Source of the DNA: a virus
Virus record (IMG/VR): IMGVR_UViG_3300022141_001072
Location: 1-63,091 of that record
DNA: 63,091 bases
Strand: one strand, 5' to 3'
Numbering within the stretch: the first letter of the stretch is position 1; every line of letters starts with the position of its first letter. Position numbers and translations under genes: made by a program. Of the stretch, positions 17,080 through 61,119 are shown one piece after another. The notes beneath the pieces are model-generated. The model was given only the letters and a program-made list of their open reading frames with translations. It made no database searches and had not been told where the DNA came from.

Positions 17080-17102
17080 GTTTCCTATTAGGTACCGATT
17101 AC
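17080..17102 (-). promoter_or_regulatory. Phage-type promoter before phoH
   Basis: Reading leftward, GTAATCGGTACCTAATA then GGAAAC matches the 23-bp family consensus at about 21 positions. Predicted +1 is 17085. It would drive phoH and all genes to 68, giving the tube, tail-tip and ejection genes their own late transcript. Confidence 0.75.
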
Positions 17103-17488
17103 GGGGTCTTACGACACTCGATAAGGGATTGTTTTAGGGTTTCAGCTCGGGTAGCTTCCCCGATAAGAAATTCTGCATCCTCTCTAAATAGTTGTTGTCC
17201 AGTGCTTCTTGCTCCTGAGCTGACAACGGGTAGAGTTTGTGCTTGTTCTCTTGTGGGACGCTGCTGCAAGCTACTAAGGATAGAAGCATGACGAGCATTA
17301 ATACTACGAATCTCATCTTCTTTCTCCTGCTTGTTTTTGATAACAAGAGCTTCATGCTCTTTGTTTTGTTTTAGGTTTAGTTCTGCTTGTTCTCTTTTAT
17401 AAGAATCAAACTTAGATTGTACTCTTAACTCACCATAGTTAAATGAGAGCAGCATACAAACGACTAATCCTACAATGTATTTGTACAT
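17099..17488 (-). CDS. Rz: Inner-membrane spanin (Rz-like)
   Basis: This 129-residue protein has one N-terminal membrane segment (IVGLVVCMLLSF) and then a long charged coiled coil (about 25-90), the design of i-spanins. Its start overlaps the endolysin stop. A second lysis gene is nested inside it in another frame. Together the two would bridge and fuse inner and outer membranes at the end of lysis. Confidence 0.8.
   Translation of the reverse strand: MYKYIVGLVVCMLLSFNYGELRVQSKFDSYKREQAELNLKQNKEHEALVIKNKQEKEDEIRSINARHASILSSLQQRPTREQAQTLPVVSSGARSTGQQLFREDAEFLIGEATRAETLKQSLIECRKTP
17134..17316 (-). CDS. Rz1: Outer-membrane lipoprotein spanin (Rz1-like), nested in Rz
   Basis: This 60-residue reading frame lies wholly inside the Rz gene in a different frame. 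It starts with a signal peptide (RFVVLMLVMLLSLVAC) whose LVAC is a lipobox, so Cys17 would be lipidated. The ATG at 17316 has AGGAG upstream, which I prefer to the upstream in-frame start at 17355. A nested Rz1 is the classical arrangement in lambda. Confidence 0.8.
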   Translation of the reverse strand: MRFVVLMLVMLLSLVACSSVPQENKHKLYPLSAQEQEALDNNYLERMQNFLSGKLPELKP

Positions 17489-17937
17489 AGTTTATATTCC
17501 TCTTGACGTCTCTTAGTCAATCCGGGTAGTGGGTTTCCTTTGAACTTGTCCCATTTTAAAATCTCTTTACATGCACCATCATAGTCATAAGCTTCAAGCT
17601 TTTTAACTAAAGTTGATTTACAGAAATTATTAGGGCCAATGTTATAAGATAGAGAAACATAAGAGTCGTATTCATACTGAGTTAAAGGTACTGTTACACA
17701 CTGCTTGACTGCTCCACTAAATTTATTTGTATCGTTTAAAAGCTTTGCTAAAGCACGTTCTACAGTAATAGTATCACCTGCTTTAACATTCTCTGTTGTA
17801 CCAAATCCTATGGTGGCAACATCACCCTTCACAGGTGTATAGGCTTCTGACCTATAACCTTCGTGAAGAGCAATACTAACTAAGGCTGAAGCACTAAGTA
17901 CTAACCCGCTTAGTTGGGTTCTGTTGATACTGGACAT
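17470..17937 (-). CDS. Endolysin, GH24-type lysozyme with signal-anchor-like N-terminus
   Basis: This 155-residue lysozyme has catalytic Glu26 in HEGYRSEAY and the downstream ATIGFGTT of the T4/P22 lysozyme family. The usual catalytic Asp position is replaced by TP, with GD (38-39) nearby, as in a subgroup that reads PVKGD before TIGFG. The N-terminal LSGLVLSASALVSIAL is weakly hydrophobic and rich in Ala, Ser and Gly, fitting a signal-arrest-release endolysin exported without a large holin hole. It overlaps holin and Rz. Confidence 0.8.
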   Translation of the reverse strand: MSSINRTQLSGLVLSASALVSIALHEGYRSEAYTPVKGDVATIGFGTTENVKAGDTITVERALAKLLNDTNKFSGAVKQCVTVPLTQYEYDSYVSLSYNIGPNNFCKSTLVKKLEAYDYDGACKEILKWDKFKGNPLPGLTKRRQEEYKLCTNTL

Positions 17938-18134
17938 ACGGGTTTAATGAAGTCCTTGTACATCTGCCAAATCTTATGGGTGATCATAAGGCTTGTATAG
18001 ATGAGAGTAGCCCACAGAACTAGATCTGAGACTTGGTACCCTGCTACAGTTGCTAAGGATATTGTTACAGGAGGCGCTGCTTTAGTCATAATTGCTGCTC
18101 CTGTTTCTGTTGTAATAGTTGTGTGATCGCTCAT
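17910..18134 (-). CDS. Holin
   Basis: This 74-residue protein has a mildly hydrophobic stretch at about 20-34 and a clear membrane segment (about 37-54: DLVLWATLIYTSLMIT), with a charged C-terminus. It overlaps the endolysin by 28 bases, and holin-endolysin-Rz-Rz1 is a standard lysis cassette. A pinholin working with a signal-anchor endolysin is a reasonable alternative. Confidence 0.7.
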   Translation of the reverse strand: MSDHTTITTETGAAIMTKAAPPVTISLATVAGYQVSDLVLWATLIYTSLMITHKIWQMYKDFIKPVCPVSTEPN

Positions 18135-18667: not shown

Positions 18668-18676
18668 ATCTGCTCC

Positions 18677-29322: not shown

Positions 29323-31599
29323 TTATTGTGGTTGTTCCATAGCTGCAGCTGGCCCTTGAACCTGCGGCATGGGCTGTCCACCTTGTGGGCGGGAAGCATC
29401 ACCAGTCACTTCACCTTTGATGAATGCCTGTGCCATTTGTAGGAGTTGTTGAATATCAGGTTGCTTAGGTGGATCAACACCTTCTTTAGCCGCCATGATA
29501 TACAGCTTACCCCACTCCTGATAAGATTTATCAAGAGCAACCATAAGTTGTTTAGTATTATCTTGAAGAGCGTTCTTAGCTTGTACATTAGTAAGATCGA
29601 CCGTAGCCTGTCTTTGTGCTAAGTCCAATTGCTTGGCTTGCTCTTCTAAAGCTTTTTGTTTCTCTTGAGCTTGTTGTTCAGCTTGTCGAGACTTTTGGGC
29701 TTGTTCTTTAAACTTAGGGTCCGTGTAGTCTACCATGTAGTCTAATGGGTCTAAATCTAAAGCTTCTAAAGTCTTACAGGCAATACGCACTGCAGCTTCA
29801 GGATTTACAGCACCACCTGCACCCGCTGCTTGCAGGGCTGGAATTAGCTGTTGACCAACCATAGCCATCTTTTTGATAGTGTTATGGTTAGAATTCTCAC
29901 CTACGTCCACATCAATGTATAACAAGAGGTTAGAGGGTAATGTACCTGGATCTACACTCTTAAAGATATCATTTTGATCGTAGTAGTGCATGGTCTTACC
30001 ACGCATCTTATCACGGAGAGTCTTGTAGATACCCTCAGTAAGTCGTTTAAAGCCTGTCTCGGCAAATCTACGAGCCATGTACTGAATACGTACTTGTGCT
30101 GCAGACATAGCCTTAGCCATTTTCTCTTCACTGTTACCTGATACGTACAACGTGTCATTGAGACCCTGAGCTGCTTTTGACAGACCAGTGGCTTGCTCTT
30201 TGTGGAGTTGTAGCATCTCTAGTAATGGTACAGTACCTGAGCTAATAGTGTCAGGAGTCAACGCTTGAACAGCGCCTGTAGGATTACCGTTAGTAGCAAT
30301 GATTTGCTTAGGCTTCATGTTTTGAAGCGCACTGAAGTCAACTACGTTAGGGTCAGCTAACTTAGGTGAGTAGTTTGTCAAGTATACGTTCTCTACGAAA
30401 CCGCGCATGATAGCGGTAGTAGCTAACGTAGCTGGGCGAATCATATCCGCAACAGACAAACCAAAGAACTCGTGAGGTACTTCGAAAGGGCAAAGAGTCG
30501 CCAGCGGAATAGTGTCACAGTCTTCTTCAAGAAGAATCATTGAGCCAGCAATAATAAAGTGCTTTAGCTCTGCGATACCGTCACCATCTCTGTCAACTCT
30601 CAGCCAACATTCGATAACAGTAATTTGTCTATTCGCCTCTGAAGGAAATAGTTCACGGGAATTTCCACCAAGCCAATACTCTTCGCCAACCAGACGTTTA
30701 CGAGCAGACTGCTCTTCGGTGTACTTGGTGGCCCAATCATATGACCCATCACCAATAGTGTCCCAGTTGATCTCTTCAGCAATATGTGGAAAATACTTAC
30801 GGATTTCAGAACGAGTCATGTCGATCTGAACACCCACGAACGCTGCATCATCTAATGAGTGCGCATCACGAGTGATACGGAAACATTCTGGATGTACGTT
30901 CTTAATATTAATTCTTGTCTTATTATGTTTACGGCGAAGTCTTACGTTCTTGTAAACCATTTGGTAAACAGCGTTACCCTGTTCATCATTACCAAGTTCG
31001 TTATCATACTCAAGTTTACCCATGACTTCGATACCGTCATCGGCTAACAAGATGTCTAGGTTATCTTGACTGATAGTATCGTACTCTTCAAATGAGTAGT
31101 CGAAGTCCTCAATGAACTCCCAACGAACAATACTGTTCTTCCATAACAAAGCAGATTTAACCCACGTATTAAGGATTTCCCAACCGTTATTTTGCTTAAA
31201 GATAGCATAGTTAACTAGGTCAGAAGCAGTCTTGGCTTCATGAAAATCTTTAGGTTGAGATCCGGCGGGAATAAACCTAGCCAACCTATTGTTGTTAAAC
31301 ATAAGTTCAGCTAAGATTGCTGTATAACCTTCTACCGCCTCTACTGTATCAGATGAAACAATCTGAGATACACCTTGAGGAGTCAAGTGGAAGTTAGGCA
31401 TCATACCATATTCGTATGTAGCCTTCTGGCGTTCACGAGCTAAGTCGGAACTGTTTAAGAAGTCACCAACAGAGTTAGTAATACCCTGTTCAATCATCTG
31501 TAAGAGTTCGTCATCTCCAACGGACTCTTTATACCTATCTGCTTTAAAGCGATGGATACCTTGTTTGTCTGTCATGTTAACCTTCCTTGGAACATTCAA
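29323..31599 (-). CDS. Portal protein
   Basis: This 758-residue protein has the P22/N4-type portal layout: an N-terminal crown and wing with ELMFNNNRLARFIPAG, a central segment LCPFEVPHEFFGLSVADMIR, then VRIQYMARRFAETGFKRL. A C-terminal Gln-rich coiled-coil barrel covers about 640-715. Its length is close to portals of large podoviruses. It forms the dodecameric DNA gate at one capsid vertex. Confidence 0.85.
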   Translation of the reverse strand: MNVPRKVNMTDKQGIHRFKADRYKESVGDDELLQMIEQGITNSVGDFLNSSDLARERQKATYEYGMMPNFHLTPQGVSQIVSSDTVEAVEGYTAILAELMFNNNRLARFIPAGSQPKDFHEAKTASDLVNYAIFKQNNGWEILNTWVKSALLWKNSIVRWEFIEDFDYSFEEYDTISQDNLDILLADDGIEVMGKLEYDNELGNDEQGNAVYQMVYKNVRLRRKHNKTRINIKNVHPECFRITRDAHSLDDAAFVGVQIDMTRSEIRKYFPHIAEEINWDTIGDGSYDWATKYTEEQSARKRLVGEEYWLGGNSRELFPSEANRQITVIECWLRVDRDGDGIAELKHFIIAGSMILLEEDCDTIPLATLCPFEVPHEFFGLSVADMIRPATLATTAIMRGFVENVYLTNYSPKLADPNVVDFSALQNMKPKQIIATNGNPTGAVQALTPDTISSGTVPLLEMLQLHKEQATGLSKAAQGLNDTLYVSGNSEEKMAKAMSAAQVRIQYMARRFAETGFKRLTEGIYKTLRDKMRGKTMHYYDQNDIFKSVDPGTLPSNLLLYIDVDVGENSNHNTIKKMAMVGQQLIPALQAAGAGGAVNPEAAVRIACKTLEALDLDPLDYMVDYTDPKFKEQAQKSRQAEQQAQEKQKALEEQAKQLDLAQRQATVDLTNVQAKNALQDNTKQLMVALDKSYQEWGKLYIMAAKEGVDPPKQPDIQQLLQMAQAFIKGEVTGDASRPQGGQPMPQVQGPAAAMEQPQ

Positions 31600-31688: not shown

Positions 31689-31832
31689 TTAGCGACCTCT
31701 GATAGGTAAAGTCCTTTCAGACTTCTCGCCTACCTTTTCCTTAGGGTTCATTAATTTACCCTGAGGAGTTGGTTTAACAAAAGAACTCATTTGTTTCTTT
31801 TGTTCACTTGTTAATTTTAAATCTATAGCCAT
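31689..31832 (-). CDS. Small protein overlapping the terminase stop
   Basis: This 47-residue frame starts MAIDLKLTSEQKKQMSSF and ends RTLPIRGR. Its ATG at 31832 overlaps the last codons of the large terminase gene, a typical translational coupling. It is basic, with no recognised family. The 89 bases between it and the portal gene hold no convincing gene. Confidence 0.55.
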   Translation of the reverse strand: MAIDLKLTSEQKKQMSSFVKPTPQGKLMNPKEKVGEKSERTLPIRGR

Positions 31833-33454
31833 TTTGTATTATCCGGTTCAAAGGATCCTATCTTCTGTGTGAAGGATACCTTGTTGGTTGTTAGTCTATC
31901 TCCGTGAGTACGGATCACTTCGAGCGCAATCGCAAGAGCAATAACAGTATCGTCATTATGACCGACAATAGCGTTAGTGCGTCCGTTATCGTCAGCAACA
32001 TAATTCATCAACTCCCCAATAACAATTCGGGAAGGAATCCAAATGTCTTCCTGCTCGATAGCATTCTTCAAGAATCCAATAATGGCTGGTTTAGAAGCCA
32101 TTGTGGTTCTCCACCCAATACGGGTGCCTTCTTCTTTACTCACGTTAGCCATCTTCGTTTGGAAGTACATATTGACATAACCCATTTGAGTTAGCCTATT
32201 TAGAGTAGCAATACCCATACTGTTAGATTCTACAGCCAATAAAGCATTATTATAATACCTGCCAAGGTAGAACAATAGATCGCCAAACTGGGATGGGTCA
32301 ATAGTATTATTTCTATATACTGCACATACTTCTCTTTTTGCATTCATCACTATCGCCGTGGAATAGTCCTTCCCAACCCCGAGACTAACATCAGCCCCAA
32401 TAGCAAAAGAATCTTCAAAAGTAGGATACTTAAAAATTTCAATCGATCCATTCTTTACCTGCTCCATCATTTGAGACTCAAAGTTAAAGTCCATCTGAGC
32501 AAGTATAGGTTGAGGAACAAGAGCTGATAACTTCTCTACATTAAATACATTACTACCTGAAACAATAAATGCTTCATCAGGTGTGCTAGGGTACTCTTGT
32601 CGGAACTTATCCAACCCACCCTCAGCTACCTTTAATCTTCTCCAATATAACTGATCATTATCAAGATTAAATCTTGTAACAAGAAGCTCTTCTTCAGGAG
32701 TTCTTTCAAAACCTTCTGGCGCAGCCCGTCTATATTCCGTCATCAAAAACCATGGTACGAAAATAGGGATATACTCGTTGGTACCTTCTACGGCACCCTT
32801 CCATAATCTATGGAAAGAATTACCTACGCCGTTAGCTGTACTCTCAAGGATAACCTCGGTACCGTCAGCCTGTGAAATACCCTGAAATAAACCCGCTAAG
32901 ATCTTCTCATCGTGAAGCCAGAAAGCTACCTCTGAAAGGTGAGCAATCGTAGGTGTAATACCTCGACCCGCTTCAGGAGAACCCGCAGTATATAGCCTAT
33001 ATCCACTCTCATTATGTTCAAACATAATCTCTTTGGCGTTAGACTTCTTTAATTCTGGACGGAACTCATCCGTCATGTGGGAAATAATATTTCTTGACAT
33101 CGTAAACAAAGCATCCGAAGTAGCACTATCATGCGCCATAACAACAGACTTGTTATACTTATTGAAATATGATTTCCAAAATACTCTACTCGCAGAATAG
33201 GTCGATAACCCCATCTGTCTCGCTTTTAAAATGATAGCTCTTACTTTACCAGTTTCTTTCAACTGTTTTTCAATAGCATCATTTACAATATGTTGTGCCT
33301 CGTTAAAGACAAAAGGTTGGAACCCCTCTCGGGAATCTTTCGGGAGAATACGGATTTGTTCTTTGGCGAATGTCTCAAAGTTACCTGTATATTCTTTAAT
33401 CTTTTCCCGTCTTTTTAATTCCCTTAAAGCCTCTAGCTTTTTATGGTTGTTCAT
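31823..33454 (-). CDS. terL: Terminase large subunit
   Basis: This 543-residue packaging motor has a Walker A-like KARQMGLST (about 77-85), an ATPase coupling segment HLSEVAFW, and a C-terminal RNase H-like nuclease starting AIGADVSLGVGKDYSTAIV, with further acidic residues near AVESNSMG and VGHNDDTVIALA. It is the first gene of the leftward late arm and follows the promoter at 33477-33499. Confidence 0.92.
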   Translation of the reverse strand: MNNHKKLEALRELKRREKIKEYTGNFETFAKEQIRILPKDSREGFQPFVFNEAQHIVNDAIEKQLKETGKVRAIILKARQMGLSTYSASRVFWKSYFNKYNKSVVMAHDSATSDALFTMSRNIISHMTDEFRPELKKSNAKEIMFEHNESGYRLYTAGSPEAGRGITPTIAHLSEVAFWLHDEKILAGLFQGISQADGTEVILESTANGVGNSFHRLWKGAVEGTNEYIPIFVPWFLMTEYRRAAPEGFERTPEEELLVTRFNLDNDQLYWRRLKVAEGGLDKFRQEYPSTPDEAFIVSGSNVFNVEKLSALVPQPILAQMDFNFESQMMEQVKNGSIEIFKYPTFEDSFAIGADVSLGVGKDYSTAIVMNAKREVCAVYRNNTIDPSQFGDLLFYLGRYYNNALLAVESNSMGIATLNRLTQMGYVNMYFQTKMANVSKEEGTRIGWRTTMASKPAIIGFLKNAIEQEDIWIPSRIVIGELMNYVADDNGRTNAIVGHNDDTVIALAIALEVIRTHGDRLTTNKVSFTQKIGSFEPDNTKWL

Positions 33455-33476: not shown

Positions 33477-33499
33477 TTTTCCTAATAGGAACCGACTAA
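33477..33499 (-). promoter_or_regulatory. Phage-type promoter for the head-tail late operon
   Basis: Reading leftward, TTAGTCGGTTCCTATTA then GGAAAA matches the family at about 20 of 23 positions. Predicted +1 is 33482, about 28 bases before the terminase start. It would drive terminase through the lysis genes. Confidence 0.75.
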
Positions 33500-33560
33500 T
33501 ACTTTCGTTTATAAAAGCCCATAGTAATATTTATTATTATTTTCTTGGGAGAAAATATAC

Positions 33561-33566
33561 TATAAT
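33561..33566 (+). promoter_or_regulatory. Candidate host-type -10 box of the early operon
   Basis: A perfect TATAAT lies in the AT-rich stretch upstream of the first rightward genes. No good -35 element exists at 16-18 bases upstream (TTGGGA at 33545-33550 is too close). It could be a weak sigma70 promoter, or only chance in AT-rich DNA. Confidence 0.35.
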
Positions 33567-33680
33567 TTTTGGGTACCCCTACCACTCTTCAGAAAGAATC
33601 GGAAAGTGAAGTTTTCTGGGGAGTGTCTGTGGGAGGAAGTCTGTGGGGTAAAGTTTCTTTGTGTGTGAAAAAGGATTAAA

Positions 33681-33984
33681 GTGTGTTGGTTCGCCCTTGT
33701 GCTTCCTTCCGTGTCCCCCCCCTGCTTTTGCTTGGGCTGTCGTGGTGGTTGCTCGGGCGTGTCGTCCCTTGTCTCTGTTCTCTCTTGGAGGTGTCCTGTG
33801 TCTGCTCTTCTTTCTCTTCTCACTGTTGGTTGCTGCTTCTGTTTGCTCGCTGTTGTGGCGGGTGTCGTGTGGTCTGTCCTTCCTCTTTGGGTTGGTGCTG
33901 TGTACTCGTTCTGTTTGTGTGGTTCTCTTGTGGCTCTCTGGGCTGCTTGACCTGTTCTCTTTCTTTCTTTCTTTGGAGGTTCCT
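33681..33984 (+). other. Adenine-depleted leader before the first early gene
   Basis: In 304 bases the plus strand has only five adenines (33789, 33822, 33904, 33950, 33977), including 108 bases with none (33681-33788). All stop codons need A, so all three plus frames stay open by composition alone. I see no gene with a plausible start and ribosome site until 33985. Upstream, 33617-33648 is G-rich with three runs of three or more G. The whole stretch 33500-33984 otherwise holds only the promoter candidates. Confidence 0.8.
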
Positions 33985-34356
33985 ATGTTTGCTCGTGTCT
34001 TGTTCCGCTCTTGGTCTGTGTTGACTGGTTCTTTGTTCCGTGTTGGTATGTGGTTTGTTCGCCTGTCCAACCACCGCTTGTGTCGCTCGTCTTCCAGTGG
34101 TTGGCGTGTTGAGCACTGGTCGTCTGACCTGTGTCCTCTCCGTGCTGAGGACCGTGATCGCTATGCTGCTGACCTGAAGGTGTTCCTGTGGGCGTTGGCT
34201 GAGCCGTCTGCTCACGGTCATGCTGGTGATGTTCCTCTTGCTCAGTACCTGTTGCTCAAGGAGCTGGTCTCTACCATCTGGTCTGGTGGTCGTACTGTTG
34301 CTGTCGTTGCTTTGATCGACGAGGTCATGGCTGCTGAGGATCTCGTTGTTGCCTAA
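33985..34356 (+). CDS. First early protein, unknown
   Basis: This 123-residue protein is chosen to start at ATG 33985 because TTTGGAGG lies seven bases upstream. The same frame is open back to 33661, but that part is a Leu/Val/Cys/Ser-rich composition artefact. The N-terminal half is basic (FARVLFRSWSVLTGS). The C-terminal half is helical and acidic (AEDRDRYAADLKVFLWALAE). Codons are GC-richer than in the rest of the genome. No family is recognised; its position suggests a host-takeover protein. Confidence 0.6.
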   Translation: MFARVLFRSWSVLTGSLFRVGMWFVRLSNHRLCRSSSSGWRVEHWSSDLCPLRAEDRDRYAADLKVFLWALAEPSAHGHAGDVPLAQYLLLKELVSTIWSGGRTVAVVALIDEVMAAEDLVVA

Positions 34357-34367
34357 GAGTCCTGCCT

Positions 34368-34396
34368 ACAGGGTTATGCCCTGTGGAGAGCGCTCT
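34368..34396 (+). promoter_or_regulatory. Hairpin pair between early genes
   Basis: ACAGGG (34368-34373) and CCCTGT (34379-34384) form a six-bp stem with a TTATG loop, followed at once by the palindrome AGAGCGCTCT (34387-34396). No T-run follows, so this is more likely an RNA processing or translation-control structure than a terminator. Confidence 0.4.
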
Positions 34397-34424
34397 TGCT
34401 CTGTCATGTTCTAAGGAGACCAAC

Positions 34425-34610
34425 ATGAAATACCTCATCCACGGCTCAGTGCTATTGTTCTGGGCTAACTGTGTACACTACGCTATGATCGCTCTTGAGC
34501 AACAAGGCTATGACCTCTTGTTGGTTGGTGTCTTGTTCTTTAGTGGTGTCACTGCTTGTGCACAACTATTCATCTTACTAACCGAAGCAGAGGAGATCGT
34601 ATGTCGTTAA
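34425..34610 (+). CDS. Small early membrane protein
   Basis: This 61-residue protein starts at ATG 34425 after AAGGAG. It has two hydrophobic segments (SVLLFWANCVHYAMIAL and LLLVGVLFFSGVTACAQLFI) and is likely an inner-membrane protein. Its end overlaps the next gene. The function is unknown. Confidence 0.6.
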   Translation: MKYLIHGSVLLFWANCVHYAMIALEQQGYDLLLVGVLFFSGVTACAQLFILLTEAEEIVCR

Positions 34611-34768
34611 TGATCCAAATCAAGGTATCAGCCTTGAATGAAGTCCAAAGAGAGTTCTTTGAAGAACGTGCTGGTATTTTAGAGTACCAAGCTAACATGC
34701 ATCGTGACCAAGCCGAAGAGATCGCATTGCAACAAACCATTGATTACTACAACCTCAAAGGAGAGTAA
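34601..34768 (+). CDS. Small early protein, unknown
   Basis: This 55-residue protein starts at ATG 34601 with GAGGAG upstream inside the previous gene. It is helical and charged (MSLMIQIKVSALNEVQREFF). No family is recognised. Confidence 0.6.
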   Translation: MSLMIQIKVSALNEVQREFFEERAGILEYQANMHRDQAEEIALQQTIDYYNLKGE

Positions 34769-34769
34769 T

Positions 34770-34880
34770 ATGTACTACGTGTACTTTAAACAGACAGGTC
34801 GTTTGATCACCAAGACAAATGATGTCAATGAGCTAAACAAATATTTACCAGCGATGGTAGATGTAGTTCGTTACTACTGA
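34770..34880 (+). CDS. Very small early protein
   Basis: This 36-residue frame (MYYVYFKQTGRLITKTN...) has AAAGGAGAG just upstream and starts right after the previous stop. The ribosome site and tight packing support translation. Its function is unknown. Confidence 0.5.
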   Translation: MYYVYFKQTGRLITKTNDVNELNKYLPAMVDVVRYY

Positions 34881-34961
34881 GTAATGCTCTTCTCGGGCTT
34901 ATAACGGAGAGACCACTTGGGGTAGGTACCAAGCAACAATCATCAACTCAAAGGAAATATT

Positions 34962-35291
34962 ATGACTAAAGCTTTCACACCTAAATTCACATCTATCAAC
35001 AAGATCGATGTATTGTTCTCTACTAACAACCCATTGGGAGAAGATCGTATGTCTAATCCTGTGAAGATCAAAGAACTCTCGTTCAATGAGATCACTCGTA
35101 GTATCGAAGCGACAGGCTCTGATGGATACAAGCGTCAATGCCGTATCGATCGTATCACTCACACTGAGACATTGAAGGCACTCACTAAAGACCTCCAGAA
35201 AGCCTACGACAATGGTGATCTGGTACGCTTTATTGCTGCTGGTGGTAACGATCCAAAGGTTTGGTTCTACAACATCGAGTCAGCTGAATAA
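34962..35291 (+). CDS. Early protein, unknown
   Basis: This 109-residue protein follows a leader with AAAGGAAATATT before the ATG. It has mixed strands and helices (ITRSIEATGSDGYKRQCRID) and no motif. The gap before it contains CTTGG...CCAAG, a short hairpin. Confidence 0.6.
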   Translation: MTKAFTPKFTSINKIDVLFSTNNPLGEDRMSNPVKIKELSFNEITRSIEATGSDGYKRQCRIDRITHTETLKALTKDLQKAYDNGDLVRFIAAGGNDPKVWFYNIESAE

Positions 35292-35317
35292 TCCACAGAC
35301 ATTTCAAGGAGAAAATC

Positions 35318-35566
35318 ATGTCTAAATACCTTTTGCTCAACCCACTCACACCAGAACAGTTCGGAATGGACTCTTGGGACGCTCTCTACGAATCTCTCGA
35401 AGAATTCGCATGTAACGCTCTCATGTCGGCTGATGTCGAGGGTCGTCCTGTAGCATTCGCCTATGCTTCTACCAAGGCAGCACTCGAACAGATGTGTACT
35501 ATCGTAGATCTTGACGGAACTATGGTAGAATACACAGCAACTTATGACCAACTCGTCCGAATCTAA
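35318..35566 (+). CDS. Early protein, acidic, unknown
   Basis: This 82-residue protein begins MSKYLLLNPLTPEQFGMDSW and is acidic (net negative), preceded by AAGGAG. Small acidic early proteins of phages often bind host enzymes. That is only an analogy. Confidence 0.6.
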   Translation: MSKYLLLNPLTPEQFGMDSWDALYESLEEFACNALMSADVEGRPVAFAYASTKAALEQMCTIVDLDGTMVEYTATYDQLVRI

Positions 35567-35647
35567 GGAGAAATACACAAAGGAGGAGCTGAAACAACGC
35601 TCTTCCTACAGATTTCGTAGGTTTAACACAAAACAGGAGAAGAAATC

Positions 35648-35875
35648 ATGCGACTAACCAAGCATAGAGGGACATTCTCTCTAGAAATGTCCTCAGAAGA
35701 GGTAAATGTGCTATGTTTTCTGCTGAAAGGCTACCAACAGACCATCCAAATACTGGATAAACAGGTAAATGCACCAACAGTGGAGAATAAACTAGCAGAA
35801 TACCTACAGGAACTCACAGTGTACCAACGAGAGGCATACGCTTATGACGCATACCTAGAGAAGGAACACCAATAA
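35648..35875 (+). CDS. Early helical protein, unknown
   Basis: This 75-residue, mostly helical protein (VLCFLLKGYQQTIQIL) is preceded by AGGAGAAGAAATC. The leader contains the hairpin CCTAC...GTAGG at 35605-35621. No recognised family. Confidence 0.55.
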   Translation: MRLTKHRGTFSLEMSSEEVNVLCFLLKGYQQTIQILDKQVNAPTVENKLAEYLQELTVYQREAYAYDAYLEKEHQ

Positions 35876-36010
35876 CGGCTCCAAGAAGGTACCGTTATGG
35901 CATTCCTTGGGTATATTCTGAGAGGAAAATACCCAGAGAAGTGTCATAGCGGAGATTCTCGGGAGAAATCGGGGTTTGTGGAGAGTGTTTTGTGGGTGTC
36001 AAAAGCTGAT

Positions 36011-36100
36011 AGTTAGTGAGTGCTAACTTACTATCAGACCATACCTTTCAGACACTCATAGTTAGTAACCACTAACTTAATACCCATCAGACCATCATCC
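36011..36100. repeat. Tandem imperfect repeat, each copy with an AGTTAG/CTAACT hairpin
   Basis: Copy one (36011-36045) and copy two (36060-36100) share AGTTAGT...CTAACTTA followed by ATCAGACCAT. Each contains an inverted repeat: AGTTAG with CTAACT around a six-base loop, and AGTTAGT with ACTAACT around AACC. They lie in the 249-base gene-free stretch before the 36125 gene. Candidates are a dimeric regulator's operator pair, a hairpin promoter, or origin elements. Confidence 0.6.
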
Positions 36101-36124
36101 AAAAACATCTAAAGGAACATCCAT

Positions 36125-36484
36125 ATGTGGACAATCTACCTCATTGACGTCATCGAAAACCTCGCATGTCTGTCATTAATCTGTTTCATCATTGCTGCTT
36201 TCATAGCATTCATCTCAGGAATGACCTTAGCAACCACTACATGGCGTGAGTGTGATACCGAAAAGAAAATGTTTAAAGCATCTTTTATCGTAATCATCGT
36301 CACAGCCTTCTTAATGGTATTCTTACCTGCTAAGAAAACCATGTATCTGATGGTTGGTGCTTACGCTGTTGAGCGTGTTGTCGAGACACCTGAAGCTAAA
36401 GAGTTTGGTTCTAAGCTCCTTAAAGCCGTTAACTCTAAGTTAGATGAAATCATCGAAAAAGAGGAGTCTAAATCTAAAAAGTGA
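36125..36484 (+). CDS. Two-segment membrane protein, unknown
   Basis: This 119-residue protein has two membrane segments (about 13-36, LACLSLICFIIAAFIAFISG, and 52-68, FIVIIVTAFLMVFLP) and a cytoplasmic helical tail ending EEKESK-like (Lys/Glu/Ser-rich). It is the last gene before the first rightward phage promoter. Confidence 0.65.
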   Translation: MWTIYLIDVIENLACLSLICFIIAAFIAFISGMTLATTTWRECDTEKKMFKASFIVIIVTAFLMVFLPAKKTMYLMVGAYAVERVVETPEAKEFGSKLLKAVNSKLDEIIEKEESKSKK

Positions 36485-36501
36485 TATAAATCAACAACTT
36501 C

Positions 36502-36524
36502 ACAGTCGGTACCTATTAGGAATT
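36502..36524 (+). promoter_or_regulatory. First rightward phage-type promoter
   Basis: ACAGTCGGTACCTATTA then GGAATT matches the 23-bp family at about 18 positions. Predicted +1 is 36519. It separates the early genes from the middle genes. About 90 bases of AT-rich leader follow before the 36613 gene. Confidence 0.7.
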
Positions 36525-39729: not shown

Positions 39730-39915
39730 ATGTGGATGTGCATGAAACAAGAAGATGAATGGGGCCGTAGCGCTGACGTCTCTTTCGGTAACTGTCCTGA
39801 AGCAGCATACAAACAATATCGTGACTACCATGATAATGAAGTTGACGCAGAAGATATGTTGTTTTATGAACTTGGTTCATCTAAAACAGCAACCGTAACT
39901 TGGCATATCGCTTAG
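39730..39915 (+). CDS. Small unknown protein
   Basis: This 61-residue protein (MWMCMKQEDEWGRSADVSF) is acidic and ends at the start of the promoter at 39912-39934. No family is recognised; the closeness to the previous gene supports it. Confidence 0.45.
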   Translation: MWMCMKQEDEWGRSADVSFGNCPEAAYKQYRDYHDNEVDAEDMLFYELGSSKTATVTWHIA

Positions 39916-39934
39916 TCGGTACCTAATAGGGAAC
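39912..39934 (+). promoter_or_regulatory. Rightward phage-type promoter directly before a terminator
   Basis: TTAGTCGGTACCTAATA then GGGAAC is the best match to the 23-bp consensus. Predicted +1 is 39929. A strong hairpin terminator begins only about 25 bases downstream, so the predicted transcript is about 60 nt unless the polymerase reads through. Confidence 0.75.
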
Positions 39935-39950: not shown

Positions 39951-39990
39951 AAAAAAGAGAATCATTACGATTCTCTCTTTATTTTTTTTT
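39951..39990. terminator. Bidirectional terminator between convergent genes
   Basis: GAGAATC (39957-39963) pairs with GATTCTC (39969-39975) around ATTAC, with A-rich and T-rich flanks on both sides giving a U-run on either strand. It separates the rightward 39730 gene from the leftward terminase-small-like gene. Confidence 0.8.
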
Positions 39991-40414
39991 ATAAACCTTC
40001 TTTACGAATAATCTCTTGCAACTCTTCATCTGAAAGGTCTGCAGTACGATTAGTGTTAGTCTGTTCAATACGGGCTAACTTCGGTTGTTCATATTCTGCT
40101 AATAAAGCAGCATACCTTGCAGCATCCTCGTAATTATCCTCAGCAATAGCTTTGTGAATAGCCATTCTCATAATGTCTAAGCTGGATAACTTAGGAAGTT
40201 CATCCATGACCTCTTGAAAGTGCTTAGCATTAAGTTTCATTGCTTCACGAGCTGCAATGTTAGCTTTCTTAGCTTCTACTGACTTAACTTGATTAACTCT
40301 TGCGGTCTCAGGTGTAAGTCGTTTAAGGTTAGCTAACGAATTAGGGTGAACACTACGCCCTTTAGTTGAACGCTCATACTCAGGGTAACCTGTTTGTGAT
40401 TGTGATTCTGTCAT
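39989..40414 (-). CDS. terS: Terminase small subunit-like protein, lone leftward gene
   Basis: This 141-residue protein has a basic N-terminus, a helical middle (LNAKHFQEVMDELPKL, then SLDIMRMAIHKAIAEDNYED), and EYEQPKLARIEQTN before an acidic end (LSDEELQEIIRKEGL). This order is typical of small terminase subunits of podoviruses, which bind the packaging site and load DNA onto the large subunit. It is the only leftward gene in the plus arm, with its own promoter at 40471-40493 and a terminator. No other small terminase is visible near terL. Confidence 0.55.
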   Translation of the reverse strand: MTESQSQTGYPEYERSTKGRSVHPNSLANLKRLTPETARVNQVKSVEAKKANIAAREAMKLNAKHFQEVMDELPKLSSLDIMRMAIHKAIAEDNYEDAARYAALLAEYEQPKLARIEQTNTNRTADLSDEELQEIIRKEGL

Positions 40415-40470: not shown

Positions 40471-40493
40471 ATTACCTATTAGGTACCATCTAG
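40471..40493 (-). promoter_or_regulatory. Leftward phage-type promoter in a palindromic context
   Basis: Reading leftward, CTAGATGGTACCTAATA then GGTAAT matches the consensus at 18 of 23 positions, with predicted +1 at 40476. The core TACCTATTAGGTA is nearly palindromic, and the rightward reading matches about 14 positions. It may therefore fire both ways, to the terminase-small-like gene and to SSB. Confidence 0.65.
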
Positions 40494-45908: not shown

Positions 45909-45931
45909 TTAGCCGGTGCCTAATAGGAAAA
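45909..45931 (+). promoter_or_regulatory. Rightward phage-type promoter before the HNH endonuclease
   Basis: TTAGCCGGTGCCTAATA then GGAAAA matches about 20 of 23 positions. Predicted +1 is 45926. The HNH gene starts 21 bases downstream. Confidence 0.72.
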
Positions 45932-45946: not shown

Positions 45947-46498
45947 ATGCACCGTCACCATATAATCCCAAAACACATGGGTGGTACAAATGATGAATGG
46001 AATTTAACAGCACCCATAACTGTAGAAGAACACGCATTAGCTCATAAAAAACTATACGAAATTTACGGTAAACCCCAAGACTATATTGCATGGAAATGTC
46101 TAGAAGGTAGTATATCTAACCAAGAAGCTAGAATATTAGCTAGCAAACTAGTGACTTCAAAATCAATTACAGTAAATAATATTGAATACGAATCAATAGC
46201 TGCAGCTCAAAAGGCTCTAGGATTATCTTATAAACGTATAGTAAAAGCCGTACTAGAGGGTAGAGATCCAACTATATATGCAACAGCTAAACCAATTACA
46301 GTTAATGGTATAGAATACAAATCTCTAAGAGAAGCTTCCATTGCTACAGGAATCTCTAGAGTTAAATTAACAACAAATAACAATGTCAATACTGACATGC
46401 GTAAATCAAAAATTAAATGTCCACACTGTAATAAAGAAGGAGACCTTTTAAATATGAAACGGTGGCACTTAGACAACTGTAAATTAAAATGCGACTAG
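45947..46498 (+). CDS. HNH homing-type endonuclease
   Basis: This 183-residue protein begins with the HNH fold (HRHHIIPKHMGGTNDEWNLT and VEEHALAHKKLY). Two NUMOD1-like repeats with VNNIEYESIAAAQKALGLS and VNGIEYKSLREASIATGIS follow. It ends with a zinc-finger-like CPHC...H...C. The repeats are DNA-recognition modules of free-standing homing endonucleases. Preceded by its own phage-type promoter and AGAAAGGAA. Confidence 0.85.
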   Translation: MHRHHIIPKHMGGTNDEWNLTAPITVEEHALAHKKLYEIYGKPQDYIAWKCLEGSISNQEARILASKLVTSKSITVNNIEYESIAAAQKALGLSYKRIVKAVLEGRDPTIYATAKPITVNGIEYKSLREASIATGISRVKLTTNNNVNTDMRKSKIKCPHCNKEGDLLNMKRWHLDNCKLKCD

Positions 46499-48692: not shown

Positions 48693-49001
48693 ATGAAAGA
48701 TTTTCTTGGACAAGAAGTAAATGTAGGTGACTACTTTGCTTACCCAACTATTGTTGGACGTAGTGCATCTATGAATGTGTATCAATTCAGAGATATTGTT
48801 AATGGAAAAGTTAAAGCGCACCCGATAGAACGTTCTTATGGTTTGTATGGTAATCCATATGAAGTATTTGATCTTCTAGAAGAAGGTAAATACGGTTATC
48901 GCCCAATGACACCTAAAGAACGCGAGAAATATGACAACAAATGTAGTACTCTACAAATGTTTTCTGAACGAGCAATCTTATTGAAAGACTTCAAACCCTA
49001 G
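48693..49001 (+). CDS. Unknown protein
   Basis: This 102-residue protein begins MKDFLGQEVNVGDYFAYPTI, reminiscent of KOW/SH3-like small phage proteins, and ends in a basic-acidic helix. The stop overlaps the start of the promoter at 48998-49020. Confidence 0.5.
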   Translation: MKDFLGQEVNVGDYFAYPTIVGRSASMNVYQFRDIVNGKVKAHPIERSYGLYGNPYEVFDLLEEGKYGYRPMTPKEREKYDNKCSTLQMFSERAILLKDFKP

Positions 49002-49020
49002 TCGGTACCTTATAGGAACA
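48998..49020 (+). promoter_or_regulatory. Rightward phage-type promoter before the replication genes
   Basis: CTAGTCGGTACCTTATA then GGAACA matches about 19 of 23 positions. Predicted +1 is 49015, only ten bases before the 49025 ATG. It would drive MazG-like, dCMP deaminase, DNA polymerase, exonuclease, primase and RNA polymerase genes. Confidence 0.75.
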
Positions 49021-55848: not shown

Positions 55849-58050
55849 ATGAATCCAACACAATATCTTACTGAACGTGTATCCAAGGTAGTATTAAACT
55901 CAGATAAGATCTATAATGAGGGTGCTAGACTCCTTGCACATCACCCTACATGGGAATACGACTTAGAAAGGTTTATCAATGAATCGTGGGACACCTTGCT
56001 GCGTTACTGTATCCGTAACAAAAATGCAACACACTCTGCGTCAGTTAAGCTTACTTTCGCCTCTGACCTTATCGGGAAGCGAATTGCAAGAGCTATTGGC
56101 ACGGACGAGCATAATATCAAATCAACTTTATCTCTTGGAGACCTTCTGCTTGAAACATTCCTCCAAGACGGTCTAATCGATATCTTCCGTGAGTATGATG
56201 GTCGTAAGGCTCCATACATGGTACGTATCGTTAACCAGACAGACGATCTTAAGCCCACGTTAATCGGCACATCATTTGAACCGTTATTACCTATCACTGG
56301 TTTGTATAGTCACCTTACTAAAGAACCGTTCATTAAGGGCTGGTCTAACAGTCGTTTGTTCCATGAGTACCTAGACAAACCATTCATCAAGAGTCTAGAG
56401 ACATTACGCCAACAGCCTTGGAAGCTTAATCTACCAGTGCTAGAGGCTATGGAGCATACATACCCTTCAGAAACTCTTGACTTGGTTGATGAGAATGGTG
56501 AAATCTTTGTATACAACATTCACCATGAGAACCTTAACTTACCTAAGAAACTTAACCACTTAGACGGTACTAAGTTCATGGGTAAGAAAGACCCTAAGCT
56601 ACAACGTATGCTTAGTAAGTACTTCGAATACAATCAGGTACTAAAGAAAGCACGATTAGTTAATGATCAGACCTTCTACCAAGAAGTATCTTGTGACTAT
56701 CGTGGACGAGTCTACTATGCTGAATCATTCCTTGAGTTCCAAGGTAGTGACTTAGCCCGTAGTCTCTTTTTATTCGCTAACAAAAAGCATGTCAGTGAAA
56801 AAGGTTTCTTCTGGTTAAAGGTACATACAGCAGCTTGCTACAATACATCATTCAACATTGATGAAATCCCAAGCTACTTTAAGACTGACTACAAAGCTTA
56901 TCTACAAGAAGAAGGTCTTGATACTATCTCTTTAGACAAGATGACCTTAGATGATCGTGCTGCTTGGGTTGATAACAACATGACCTTCTTAATGGAGATT
57001 GCCAAGCAGAAACGTATTGACATGTCAGCTGAAAAGCCATATAGCTTACTAGCTTGTTGTTTAGAGATTCAAGGGTACAAAGTAGCTAAGATGTTACGTC
57101 AAGAGTATATGTCAGGGTTCCCTATCCCTATTGATGGTTCTAATAACGGCTGGCAGCATCTTGCAGCTATGTCCAAAGATAAGCAAGCAGGTACATTAGT
57201 GTCCTTAGTACCTACTCCTATCCAAAAAGACTTCTATGTAGCTGTTGCTAAAGAACTCATCACAATTATGCCTGAATGGTTTGAAGAAAAGCAGATGCCT
57301 ATGAAGCATATCCGTAAAGGTATTGCTAAACGAGGCTCTATGACTCGTGCTTACTCAGCAGGTAAACAACGTATCGCCAAGAACATGTATGATGATTGTC
57401 ACGTAGAAGGTTTCACTGTCAAGTATAACATTGATCAGGATCAGTGTGATACTCTTGCAGGTAACCTAATCAAAGCAATCAACACTGTATGTGCTGGTCC
57501 ACTTAAAACAACTAAATACTTACAGAAGATTGCAGAACATGAACTTAACTCCGGTAGAAATAACCTTACTTGGCACACTCCTAGTGGCTTCCCTGTGGTT
57601 TACAAAGCTTATCTTCAGCACGAACGCAAACAGCGAGGTACGATACGAGGTATTACGGGAAATAAAGACGGTCGTATCATGCACGTTATTAAAGTGGATG
57701 TCCTCAATAAAGAAACTGGGGAAAAAGTACCATGCCGTAGGAGTTTTGCTTCGGGTATTAGCCCTAATGTGGTACATTCCTATGATGCTGCTCATATGGC
57801 TAACACTATTGTTGGCTTCAATGGTAGTTTTGGTGCAGTTCACGATTCTTTTAGTACCCACGCTGATGAAGTGGATTTTCTACAAGAAGTAACTAAGATG
57901 AACTTCATTGCTCAGTATGACACAGAGAACTTCTTTAACACCCTCCAAGATACCCTCATGGAGAATAAAGAATCATTCACTTTTGCTCAACCTGAAACAG
58001 GAAGTTTAGACCTCCAAGACGTTTATAACTCAAAGTATTTCTTTTGCTAA
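55849..58050 (+). CDS. Single-subunit DNA-dependent RNA polymerase (T7-like)
   Basis: This 733-residue polymerase has CDYRGRVYYAESF (R287), motif A D429GSNNGWQH, motif B R489KGIAK494-x7-Y502 and motif C H665-D666-SFSTHADE. T7 RNA polymerase is 883 residues, so it is a compact version, and its D429-K494 spacing (65) is shorter than in T7 (94). It is the best candidate for reading the 23-bp promoter family, since such promoters and polymerases occur together. Confidence 0.93.
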   Translation: MNPTQYLTERVSKVVLNSDKIYNEGARLLAHHPTWEYDLERFINESWDTLLRYCIRNKNATHSASVKLTFASDLIGKRIARAIGTDEHNIKSTLSLGDLLLETFLQDGLIDIFREYDGRKAPYMVRIVNQTDDLKPTLIGTSFEPLLPITGLYSHLTKEPFIKGWSNSRLFHEYLDKPFIKSLETLRQQPWKLNLPVLEAMEHTYPSETLDLVDENGEIFVYNIHHENLNLPKKLNHLDGTKFMGKKDPKLQRMLSKYFEYNQVLKKARLVNDQTFYQEVSCDYRGRVYYAESFLEFQGSDLARSLFLFANKKHVSEKGFFWLKVHTAACYNTSFNIDEIPSYFKTDYKAYLQEEGLDTISLDKMTLDDRAAWVDNNMTFLMEIAKQKRIDMSAEKPYSLLACCLEIQGYKVAKMLRQEYMSGFPIPIDGSNNGWQHLAAMSKDKQAGTLVSLVPTPIQKDFYVAVAKELITIMPEWFEEKQMPMKHIRKGIAKRGSMTRAYSAGKQRIAKNMYDDCHVEGFTVKYNIDQDQCDTLAGNLIKAINTVCAGPLKTTKYLQKIAEHELNSGRNNLTWHTPSGFPVVYKAYLQHERKQRGTIRGITGNKDGRIMHVIKVDVLNKETGEKVPCRRSFASGISPNVVHSYDAAHMANTIVGFNGSFGAVHDSFSTHADEVDFLQEVTKMNFIAQYDTENFFNTLQDTLMENKESFTFAQPETGSLDLQDVYNSKYFFC

Positions 58051-58093: not shown

Positions 58094-58116
58094 CTAGTCG
58101 GTACCTAATACCGTAT
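58094..58116 (+). promoter_or_regulatory. Promoter-like site with CC instead of GG at +1
   Basis: CTAGTCGGTACCTAATA is a near-perfect upstream part of the family, but the next bases are CCGTAT, so the usual initiating GG is missing. It stands between RNA polymerase and the GIY-YIG gene. It may be inactivated, or start a few bases away. A hairpin (GTTGTG/CACAAC, 58079-58094) is directly upstream. Confidence 0.55.
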
Positions 58117-58132: not shown

Positions 58133-58606
58133 ATGATAAAAGAATTATACTACCTGTACCAACATGTTGATCCTGATTCAGGTGAAATTGTTTACATTGG
58201 TATGGGTACCGGAAGTCGAGCATGGGCCACAGGCACTTCTTCAGGGAGTCACCGTAGTCCTGCTCATTCAATGTGGATTAGTAATCTTTATGAGCAAGGA
58301 TTCACTATGGGTGATATTGCAAAAGTAACTCATACTTTACTCACTAAAGATCATGCACTTGATTTAGAGTTAAATTTAATTAAAGAAGTTAAACCTATTT
58401 ATAATAGATTAGGTAACCCAGATAAATTTTATTGTAAATCCTTTACACCTGATCAAGCAATACTTGCAAACGAATTGTTTGAAGGTGGTAAAAGGTATTA
58501 TGAAATACCTGACATACTCAATATTAATTCATCAAACAAAAGCGTAACCGGAAAACGCATGGTTACTGCTGGAAAACAAATTTTACAAAGGACAATTAAA
58601 CAATGA
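58133..58606 (+). CDS. GIY-YIG nuclease-like protein
   Basis: This 157-residue protein has YYLYQHVDPDSGEIVYIGMG as GIY-YIG core, an Arg in GSRAW, and a Glu-containing helix later (LDLELNLIKEVKPIYNRL). The ATG at 58133 has GAGG at suitable distance and is preferred over 58118. It separates RNA polymerase from ribonucleotide reductase and looks like an inserted homing gene. Confidence 0.75.
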   Translation: MIKELYYLYQHVDPDSGEIVYIGMGTGSRAWATGTSSGSHRSPAHSMWISNLYEQGFTMGDIAKVTHTLLTKDHALDLELNLIKEVKPIYNRLGNPDKFYCKSFTPDQAILANELFEGGKRYYEIPDILNINSSNKSVTGKRMVTAGKQILQRTIKQ

Positions 58607-60474
58607 ACTCTTACCAAGAACTGATTGCAAAATCAAGATACGCTCGCTATCTCCCTGAGAAAAAGCGCCGTGAAAACTGGGACGAAACAGCAGACCGCTG
58701 GACAGACTTCTTTAAGGAACAATTAGCAGATAAATTAGATACCACAGACAGCATCTGGGGTATGTTAAACCAAGAAATTAAATCACTAAGTACCCTTCCC
58801 TCAATGCGCTCAATTATGACTGCAGGTGAGGCACTCCGCAGGACTCACGTAGCAGCTTACAACTGTAGCTACCTACCTGTAGACCATCCCCGCTGTTTCG
58901 ATGAGGCGATGTACATCTTACTATGTGGTACTGGTGTAGGTTTCTCATGTGAGTCTCAATATACCCAACAACTTCCTGTCGTACCTCAGCTACATCAATC
59001 AGAACATATCATTGTTGTAGAGGATAGCAAAGAAGGTTGGTGTTATGCCTTCCAAGAACTCGTAGCATGCTTATACAAAGGTATTATTCCTACATGGGAT
59101 GTATCTAAGGTACGTCCAGCAGGTGCTCCACTGAAAACCTTTGGTGGTCGTGCTAGTGGTCCAGAGCCTTTGGTATCTTTGTTTAACTACACAGTTAAGA
59201 AGTTCACTAAGGCTAAGGGTCGTAAGCTAAAGAACATCGAAGCACACGACATCATGTGTAAGATTGGTGAAGTAGTAGTGGTTGGTGGTGTACGCCGTTC
59301 AGCTATGATCTCCTTAGGTGACTTGTCTGACCGTGACCATGCTACCGCTAAGGCTGGTGAATGGTGGAAAGGCTTTGGCGAACGTGCCTTAGCTAATAAC
59401 TCAGCAGTATACCAGACTAAACCATCTGTCGGTGAGTTCATGAAGGAATGGTTAGATATTTACAACAGTCACTCAGGTGAACGTGGTATCTTCAACCGTG
59501 AAGCTTCTCAAGTACAAGCTGCTAAATGGGGTCGCCGAGCAAAAGACGTACAGTACGGTACTAACCCTTGCTCAGAGATTATCCTTAAGCCATATCAGTT
59601 CTGTAACCTCTCTACCATTGTAGTTGAAGCAGAAGATACCCTTGAATCACTCAAACTGAAGGTTCGCTTTGCTACTATCATGGGTACTATGCAGTCTACC
59701 TTGACTGACTTCCCTTACCTACGTGATATCTGGAAACAGAATACAGAAGCAGAACGTTTACTAGGTGTATCTATGACAGGTATTCTAGATAATGCTATCC
59801 TCCGTGGAGAAGCTTTTAACCTAGATGCAGTGCTATCAGAACTCCGTGATGTAGCCCGTGAGACTAACAAGGAATGGGCTGGTATCTTAGGTATCCCTGA
59901 GTCTGCAGCTATTACTTGTGTTAAGCCAGAAGGTACAGTGTCTCAGTTGACATTGACATCTAGTGGCATCCATGCAGGTCATGCCCCATACTACATTCGC
60001 CGTATTCGTCAAGATAAGAAAGACCCATTGACTCAGTTCTTGATCTCTCAAGGTATCCCTAATGAAGACTGCGTAATGAAGCCAGACCAGACAGCTGTGT
60101 TTAGCTTCCCTATGCGTTCACCCGGGTTTACTCGTGAAGACTTAACTGCTATTCAACATCTTGAGATCTGGTTGGCCTACCAAAGAAATTGGTGTGAGCA
60201 TAAGCCCTCAGTTACTATCTCGGTCAAAGAACACGAGTGGCCTGAAGTAGGTGCATGGGTTTATAAGCATTTTGATGAATGCACCGGAGTCTCCTTCTTA
60301 CCTGATGACGGCGGTACATATCGCCAAGCGCCATACGAGAATATTGATTCCTCCGAGTACAAACGTTTGAAAGATACACTACCCTCAATCGATTGGGAAT
60401 TGTTTATCGAAGACCGTGACAATGTAGAAGGTGCTCAAATGTTGGCTTGCACAGCTGGTCAATGCGAACTATGA
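58603..60474 (+). CDS. Class II (B12-dependent) ribonucleoside-triphosphate reductase
   Basis: This 623-residue enzyme has GTGVGFSCESQYTQQLP, NPCSEIILKPYQFCNLS and CVKPEGTVSQLT (the fingerprint of the monomeric adenosylcobalamin type), and ends with a redox-active CTAGQCEL tail. It reduces ribonucleotides to deoxyribonucleotides using cobalamin and needs no oxygen or second subunit. Thioredoxin is encoded two genes downstream, the likely electron donor. Confidence 0.9.
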   Translation: MNSYQELIAKSRYARYLPEKKRRENWDETADRWTDFFKEQLADKLDTTDSIWGMLNQEIKSLSTLPSMRSIMTAGEALRRTHVAAYNCSYLPVDHPRCFDEAMYILLCGTGVGFSCESQYTQQLPVVPQLHQSEHIIVVEDSKEGWCYAFQELVACLYKGIIPTWDVSKVRPAGAPLKTFGGRASGPEPLVSLFNYTVKKFTKAKGRKLKNIEAHDIMCKIGEVVVVGGVRRSAMISLGDLSDRDHATAKAGEWWKGFGERALANNSAVYQTKPSVGEFMKEWLDIYNSHSGERGIFNREASQVQAAKWGRRAKDVQYGTNPCSEIILKPYQFCNLSTIVVEAEDTLESLKLKVRFATIMGTMQSTLTDFPYLRDIWKQNTEAERLLGVSMTGILDNAILRGEAFNLDAVLSELRDVARETNKEWAGILGIPESAAITCVKPEGTVSQLTLTSSGIHAGHAPYYIRRIRQDKKDPLTQFLISQGIPNEDCVMKPDQTAVFSFPMRSPGFTREDLTAIQHLEIWLAYQRNWCEHKPSVTISVKEHEWPEVGAWVYKHFDECTGVSFLPDDGGTYRQAPYENIDSSEYKRLKDTLPSIDWELFIEDRDNVEGAQMLACTAGQCEL

Positions 60475-60851
60475 TTTGCAAACACGAAGGTTGTACTAAC
60501 TTAGCTCGTACATACACCCGTACTTACAAGACTGGCAAGACGTATCATTGTGTTGATACTGAATGTCTGTCTTGTAAAAATAAATTAAGCAAATATGGAA
60601 TAACAACTCCACAAAGAGACGCACTTTTGTTATCACAAAATAATCAGTGTGGGTGTTGTGGATTCCCTATTTCCTTTACAAGTGCAATACGATTAGGTGC
60701 AGGTAAAAGCAATGCAGTAATTGATCATGACCATACCACAGGGAAAGTACGTGGTATTCTTTGTGGTGAATGTAATACAGGTATAGGTAAACTAGGTGAT
60801 TCTATTGAATCCCTAAAGAAAGCCCTTAACTATTTAGAAAGAAACCAATGA
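60471..60851 (+). CDS. Endonuclease VII-like recombination nuclease
   Basis: This 126-residue protein has four zinc-type Cys (CGCC in the middle) and VIDHDHTTGKVRGILC then ECNTGIGKLGDSIESL, the signature of T4 endonuclease VII relatives that resolve branched DNA. The start at 60471 overlaps the reductase stop. It could equally be a homing-type enzyme, since this fold is also found in mobile genes. Confidence 0.75.
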   Translation: MICKHEGCTNLARTYTRTYKTGKTYHCVDTECLSCKNKLSKYGITTPQRDALLLSQNNQCGCCGFPISFTSAIRLGAGKSNAVIDHDHTTGKVRGILCGECNTGIGKLGDSIESLKKALNYLERNQ

Positions 60852-61111
60852 ACAAACTAATTAAAGTATACACTGAATGGTGTGGTCCCTGTAAAGTAAT
60901 GACAGGTATTCTTAACGACATTGATCTTGTAGGTGAGTTTAATACTACGCTAGAAGAGATTGATGCCGCTCAAGATAAAGAGATTTTAATCAAACACCAA
61001 ATCCGAGGTGTACCTTACTTTATCTTAGAAGATTCTGAAGGTAATGTACTACGTAAACAAAGCGGTACTATGACTCTAGAAGAAACAAGGAAGTTTTTAG
61101 CTGGAGCCTAA
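60848..61111 (+). CDS. Thioredoxin-like protein
   Basis: This 87-residue protein has the active site WCGPC (11-15), then GVPYFILEDSEG with the cis-Pro. It is shorter than host thioredoxins (about 105) and glutaredoxin-like in size. It most likely reduces the ribonucleotide reductase. Its 3' end overlaps the promoter at 61097-61119. Confidence 0.85.
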   Translation: MNKLIKVYTEWCGPCKVMTGILNDIDLVGEFNTTLEEIDAAQDKEILIKHQIRGVPYFILEDSEGNVLRKQSGTMTLEETRKFLAGA

Positions 61112-61119
61112 TAGGAAAC
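61097..61119 (+). promoter_or_regulatory. Rightward phage-type promoter before the tRNA cluster
   Basis: TTAGCTGGAGCCTAATA then GGAAAC matches about 19 of 23 positions. Predicted +1 is 61114, 13 bases before the first tRNA. It would transcribe the tRNAs and the last genes of the arm. Confidence 0.65.

Follow-up and report, generated by a model that had tools for sequence, protein, structure and literature searches.

The window, by which we mean the whole 63,091-nt stretch of viral DNA analysed here, comprises a minus arm (68-33454) and a mostly plus arm (~34.4 to 63.1 kb). The nine 23-mers listed by the first-pass annotation were all found in it, each at its position and on its strand. On the minus strand, GTAATCGGTACCTAATAGGAAAC (17080-17102) lies upstream of the PhoH-like gene 16392-17075(-), TTAGTCGGTTCCTATTAGGAAAA (33477-33499) heads the virion arm, in front of the large terminase gene 31823-33454(-), and CTAGATGGTACCTAATAGGTAAT (40471-40493) precedes a conserved 141-aa gene, 39989-40414(-), whose product belongs to no named family; that it is the small terminase subunit is only a guess. 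On the plus strand, ACAGTCGGTACCTATTAGGAATT (36502-36524) is the first phage-type site of the replication arm. The next one, TTAGTCGGTACCTAATAGGGAAC (39912-39934), is convergent with 40471(-) and has a T-run hairpin just downstream (39956-39976); in this convergent pair, the hairpin and T-runs on both strands occupy 39952-39980. Further along, TTAGCCGGTGCCTAATAGGAAAA (45909-45931) lies ahead of the homing endonuclease gene 45947-46498, and CTAGTCGGTACCTTATAGGAACA (48998-49020) is the last site before the genes of the DNA polymerase, the helicase and the RNA polymerase. CTAGTCGGTACCTAATACCGTAT (58094-58116), a member of a subclass with CC at +1/+2, is located 44 nt behind the RNA polymerase gene (55849-58050, plus strand), and TTAGCTGGAGCCTAATAGGAAAC (61097-61119) 7 nt ahead of the tRNA cluster, where the tRNA-Met gene begins at 61126.

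Other features lie beside these sites. The stretch 33500-36500, between the divergent head sites, has a higher G+C content and carries small plus-strand ORFs, probably early genes read by the host. Behind the polymerase gene, a ribonucleotide reductase of the B12-dependent type is encoded at 58603-60474 (phrog_367; PF21995 insertion domain). ARAGORN placed four tRNA genes (Met, Asn, Ser, Arg) at 61126-61675, of which tRNA-Asn (61336-61414) was absent from the Rfam matches at gathering score. Next to the cluster are an RyR-domain protein (61696-62052) and a ferritin-like protein (62312-62776).

The site family and its proposed reader

The sites form one family, for which the earlier wording "near-identical" was somewhat generous and, as a definition, too strict, as they are 1-6 bases off the consensus TTAGTCGGTACCTAATAGGAAAC (mismatches: 17080, 2; 33477, 3; 40471, 5; 36502, 5; 39912, 1; 45909, 3; 48998, 4; 58094, 6; 61097, 4). 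Four sites in the window have at most three mismatches, compared to 0.00 expected from 100 shuffles. With a weight matrix built from the nine sites themselves, which makes their rank circular, the nine scored 25.3-33.3 bits and the best other place in the window 14.8, a large gap; the matrix revealed no tenth site in the window. When noncoding 17-mers were compared unsupervised, with no motif given, the site family ranked first. It is best described by AG-NN-GG-W-N-CCTAATA. The specificity proposed initially, GGTACCTAATA|GG, is too strict, since positions -9/-8 vary within the class and +1/+2 may be CC.

Eight of the nine sites lie in noncoding DNA or share just a few nt with a stop codon, and the sites sit at gene edges; the largest overlap is that of 61097-61119 with the last 15 nt of ORF 60848-61111. 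The placing between or at the edges of genes stands, and so does the orientation toward downstream genes, except for 39912(+), which points into the minus-strand gene 39989-40414, the next plus-strand gene being ~600 nt further. The layout is that of T7-class promoters, as first suggested, i.e., a compact conserved block spanning about -17 to +6, present in several copies outside genes.

The proposed reader of the sites is the 733-aa product of ORF 55849-58050, which by homology, catalytic residues and modelled fold is a T7-class single-subunit RNA polymerase. It matches Pfam RNA_pol (PF00940, 3.2e-56). The T7 catalytic residues D537, R632, Y639, H811 and D812 align to D429, R495, Y502, H665 and D666, which are invariant across 37 relatives. 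The AlphaFold model (pLDDT 86, pTM 0.82) has T7 and mitochondrial RNAP as its closest folds, with a Z-score of 31.8 over 647 residues against the T7 polymerase-promoter complex 1cez. A predicted specificity hairpin, with strands 590-598 and 609-617, lies in the region that aligns with the T7 specificity loop.

The motif and the specificity hairpin in related phages

Relatives of the polymerase were found in ~110 contigs of uncultured viruses. In the first 80 loci, the motif gave 128 matches versus 2 in the reversed control, at corresponding places; the recurrent ones are directly behind the polymerase gene and ~2.2 kb beyond. Counterparts of the 48998 site lie ~6.5-7 kb upstream of the RNAP gene. 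Several sites recur almost letter for letter: GTAATCGGTACCTAATAGGAAAC (17080) and TTAGTCGGTTCCTATTAGGAAAA (33477) are unchanged in G001 at 30500 and 11367, respectively, and TTAGCCGGTGCCTAATAGGAAAA (45909) is unchanged in L033 and L084. G001 also has nearly the same sequence as the 40471 site (CTAGATGGTACCTAATAGGTAAT) at 5173, and for the 17080 site G014 has TTAATCGGTACCTAATAGGAAAC at 16459. Seven other genomes (G001, G003, G005, G006, G009, G013 and G014) also have the convergent pair around the conserved minus-strand gene. The search of the window and its relatives that the first-pass annotation had called for found the sites mostly outside genes: in 11 long genomes, 59/78 are noncoding, while only 7% of the sequence is. 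In some relatives the RNAP gene is split by an insert of ~740 bp (L096:10001-12945, L098:1673-4617, L099:10001-12947, L103:3-1744). The insert may be an intron or mobile element and holds a motif copy of its own (e.g., L096:11515).

We also searched 2.9 million viral contigs with the motif only. All 20 stretches with the exact class A 18-mer (classes are defined below) encode relatives of window proteins, and 15 of the 16 with the class B 17-mer are in relatives of this phage, so the motif belongs to this phage group and little else. The remaining class B match, L182, was taken as chance, having no homologous window protein. One genome retrieved via the motif alone (G025) encodes a 60% identical polymerase, which keeps Q595 and M611, as expected. 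A search of 84,980 bacterial and archaeal genomes turned up no relative.

The relatives fall into classes by hairpin and motif. The 60 full-length class A enzymes all have Q595 and M or T611, and their promoters read AG-NN-GG-W-N-CCTAATA; with M611, positions -9/-8 are TA, TT, TG, AA, AG or TC. Class B (L030, L039-L043, L045, L048, L071, L091-L093) is one clade with full support in the tree, with polymerases 80-82% identical to that of the window. Its hairpin carries H595, P/T606, K607 and R/N611, and all of its recognised promoters, on both strands and genome-wide, read AG-NN-G-N-CCCCTAATA. L078, in a separate part of the tree, combines F595 with R611, and both of its sites have GGCCCC. Class C (L107-L119, ~62-65% identity) is a clade with a rebuilt hairpin, RYQGTIKGVNNNKSISH. 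The class A pattern was not found at the usual places in class C genomes; a de novo search of noncoding DNA gave AGCYCWGCYCTAARGGA, which is present at corresponding places in class C relatives but nearly absent from class A or B genomes. The weight matrix from the nine sites missed classes B and C, and their motifs were recovered with a pattern in which the recognition bases were left free and by the de novo search. In the first de novo run, which also covered coding DNA, codon-like repeats dominated the output. For L120/G017, which has a distant polymerase, the de novo search found no motif, and a dyad score of the consensus sequences gave no discrimination.

CC at -9/-8 was present in 0/96 distinct sites with M/T611 (Q595) versus 14/14 with R/N611 (H/F595), and by locus (59 versus 13) there was no exception; sites and loci are not independent events here, and the tree supports about three switches, namely class B, L078 and class C. 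The covariation thus rests on few events; in these, as in T7-class promoters, the recognition bases change along with the polymerase's specificity loop. An all-column alignment scan, in which the hairpin was not preselected, separated class B and L078 from class A at columns 595, 611 and 724, the last being near the C-terminus and outside the hairpin. The only columns wholly different from class A in both B and C were 595, 607 and 611. Possible intermediates are seen in class A, where -8 tolerates C, and in the GGCCCC of L078.

The bases that change between the classes occupy the positions contacted by the T7 loop, -11 to -8, and the changing residues are in the matching hairpin. In T7, loop residues N748, R756 and Q758 contact -10/-11, -9 and -8, respectively (PMC5937735). 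Arg611 with C at -9 in the present group resembles R756 with C at -9 in T7.

Promoter reading, alternatives and probable recoding

We are highly confident that the phage's single-subunit T7-class RNA polymerase uses the nine sites as its promoters, as predicted from their sequence and that of the enzyme. The first-pass assignment to the 55849 polymerase gained support from the noncoding placing, the group specificity and the change together with the predicted hairpin. This evidence is stronger than that from a mere repeat, because reader and target change together.

We infer that the enzyme binds the DNA and where it starts, as well as the timing and role of the individual sites, as follows. 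The β-hairpin (590-598, 609-617) would read the major groove from about -11 to -6, and the polymerase would melt the TAATA element and start near +1; a start at GG is plausible from the geometry. In the simplest view, from a model that contains no DNA, the hairpin would recognise bases from about -11 to -8, with residue 611 and its neighbour 595 setting -9/-8. The divergent head promoters 33477(-) and 36502(+) would drive the virion arm and the replication arm, and the internal promoters would serve single genes, the polymerase-bearing block, the gene(s) behind the polymerase and the tRNA cluster. Specifically, 48998(+) would lead into the genes of the DNA polymerase, the helicase and the RNA polymerase, giving positive feedback, whereas 58094(+) would serve the gene(s) behind the polymerase and 61097(+) the tRNAs. 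The small conserved minus-strand gene inside the plus arm would be served by 40471(-), with 39912(+) facing it. The small ORFs at ~34.4-36.1 kb, upstream of the first plus-strand site, are presumably read by the host polymerase; a sigma-70 scan of 33.3-41.2 kb for an early host promoter gave fewer matches than shuffles and found none.

Several points count against the promoter reading. Switches in the covariation are few, and column 724, outside the hairpin, separates the groups as well. Moreover, 39912 faces an antisense gene, and the conserved CC subclass does not fit the usual G start. Of the distinct class A sites with M611, 84 in all, 51 carry G and 28 carry C at +1; C is also found at +2 in 28. 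Most class A and B relatives retain CC at +1/+2 behind the polymerase gene, at counterparts of 58094 (e.g., L009:11660, L041:12199). GG at +1/+2 is not a requirement of the motif: one conserved subclass, with 58094 among its members, has CC there. Initiation with C is rare for T7-class enzymes, so at the CC sites the start may be shifted to the preceding A, or the site may be kept weak.

We weighed three other explanations. The class A core GGTACC is a palindrome with partly palindromic flanks, and the unsupervised search returned matches on both strands, as would suit operators bound by a dimeric regulator from the phage or the host. However, the conserved TAATA is one-sided and the orientation follows the genes. 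The palindrome is also lost in class B (GNCCCC) and class C, whereas TAATA or TAA and the placing stay, and the changes go with the polymerase hairpin; we consider operators very unlikely. Middle or late promoters read by the host RNA polymerase with a phage sigma factor or activator would likewise be expected in both the replication and the virion arm, and sigma-70 sites are sparse in the scanned region. Among the genes checked (annotation is partial), none was recognised as coding for such a factor, and a single 17-23-bp block with T7-promoter geometry that tracks a residue change in the polymerase argues against this explanation, to which we give extremely little weight.

Repeats spread by homing endonuclease cassettes, without a common function, would account for 45909 lying directly ahead of a homing endonuclease gene, for 58094 preceding a small GIY-YIG-like ORF and for the copy in the insert of the L096 RNAP gene. 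Nevertheless, most sites have no endonuclease and keep their places from genome to genome; behind the RNAP gene of relatives, the site occurs without the GIY-YIG-like ORF and precedes another gene. These syntenic cassette-free sites largely refute a spread by cassettes, and its probability is close to nil.

Taking the sites as promoters of the phage polymerase, we find it likely, as one joint reading, that this phage group represents a series of polymerase-promoter systems recoded in nature and that it has a conserved promoter subclass beginning ACC instead of AGG. A few hairpin changes, at 595 and 611, with 606/607, would have switched GGWN to GNCC, all promoters of the genome would have followed, and a similar code would have arisen again in a separate lineage. 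Close relatives may now be mutually orthogonal. The kind of promoter is already known; of more interest is that whole promoter sets have probably been recoded in nature. This bears on an old question, namely how a master regulator can acquire a new target sequence if numerous sites have to change at once. Here close relatives, with polymerases 80-82% identical, show a completed change at all recognised sites. Several promoter codes are added for a compact 733-aa polymerase, with pairs suited to in vitro testing. No earlier description of this promoter family was found in the sources searched, whose coverage leaves out most subscription journals.

Comparison with known systems

The nearest named phage by polymerase is Roseobacter phage CRP-7 (MK613349; 31.6% identity), which has the same two-armed gene order. 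It has its own intergenic motif with AG-N13-GG, one copy of which lies just ahead of its polymerase gene, but the motif obtained by de novo search, TATAGTCCCYTATTAAAAGG, has another recognition sequence. The CRP-7 paper makes no mention of promoters (PMC6918029). DSS3_VP1 and DSS3_PM1 (Naomviridae) have a homologous polymerase (24%). The intergenic motif of DSS3_VP1, ATAGGGTGCGTTAAAGARGGG, has the AG-N13-GG spacing seen in the window and again another recognition sequence; unlike in the window, its annotated genes are all on one strand. Putative polymerase promoter families were thus noted in two isolated roseophages (L090 and L156 for CRP-7, L157 and L158 for DSS3_VP1).

As in Klebsiella phage KP34, the polymerase gene lies behind DNA metabolism genes and a promoter right behind the polymerase, but KP34 has another promoter sequence and two unrelated promoter classes for one enzyme (PMC6834552). 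One promoter of that phage, predicted because its sequence was repeated, turned out to be inactive (PMC6834552), which warns that predictions from repeats only can be wrong. The one-strand, one-direction gene arrangement of the Autographiviridae is absent here, and the phage is not filed in that family.

The likeness to phage T7 extends to the single-subunit polymerase, alike in fold and catalytic residues, to the compact promoter with a recognition stretch, an A/T-rich melting element and a predicted start at about +1, and to several promoter copies per genome, one of them right behind the polymerase gene. The polymerases, however, share only ~22% identity over the aligned fold, and hairpin and promoter sequence differ; in addition, the sites here are on both strands of a two-armed genome and include the conserved CC subclass at +1/+2. 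As reported by Garry et al. (2018, PMC6171733), T7 grown on a respecified polymerase, with its preference changed at -11 to -9, selects promoter changes there. In that laboratory T7 with an altered polymerase, only 4-5 of 16 promoters changed (PMC6171733), whereas in the present group every recognised class B promoter carries the new code.
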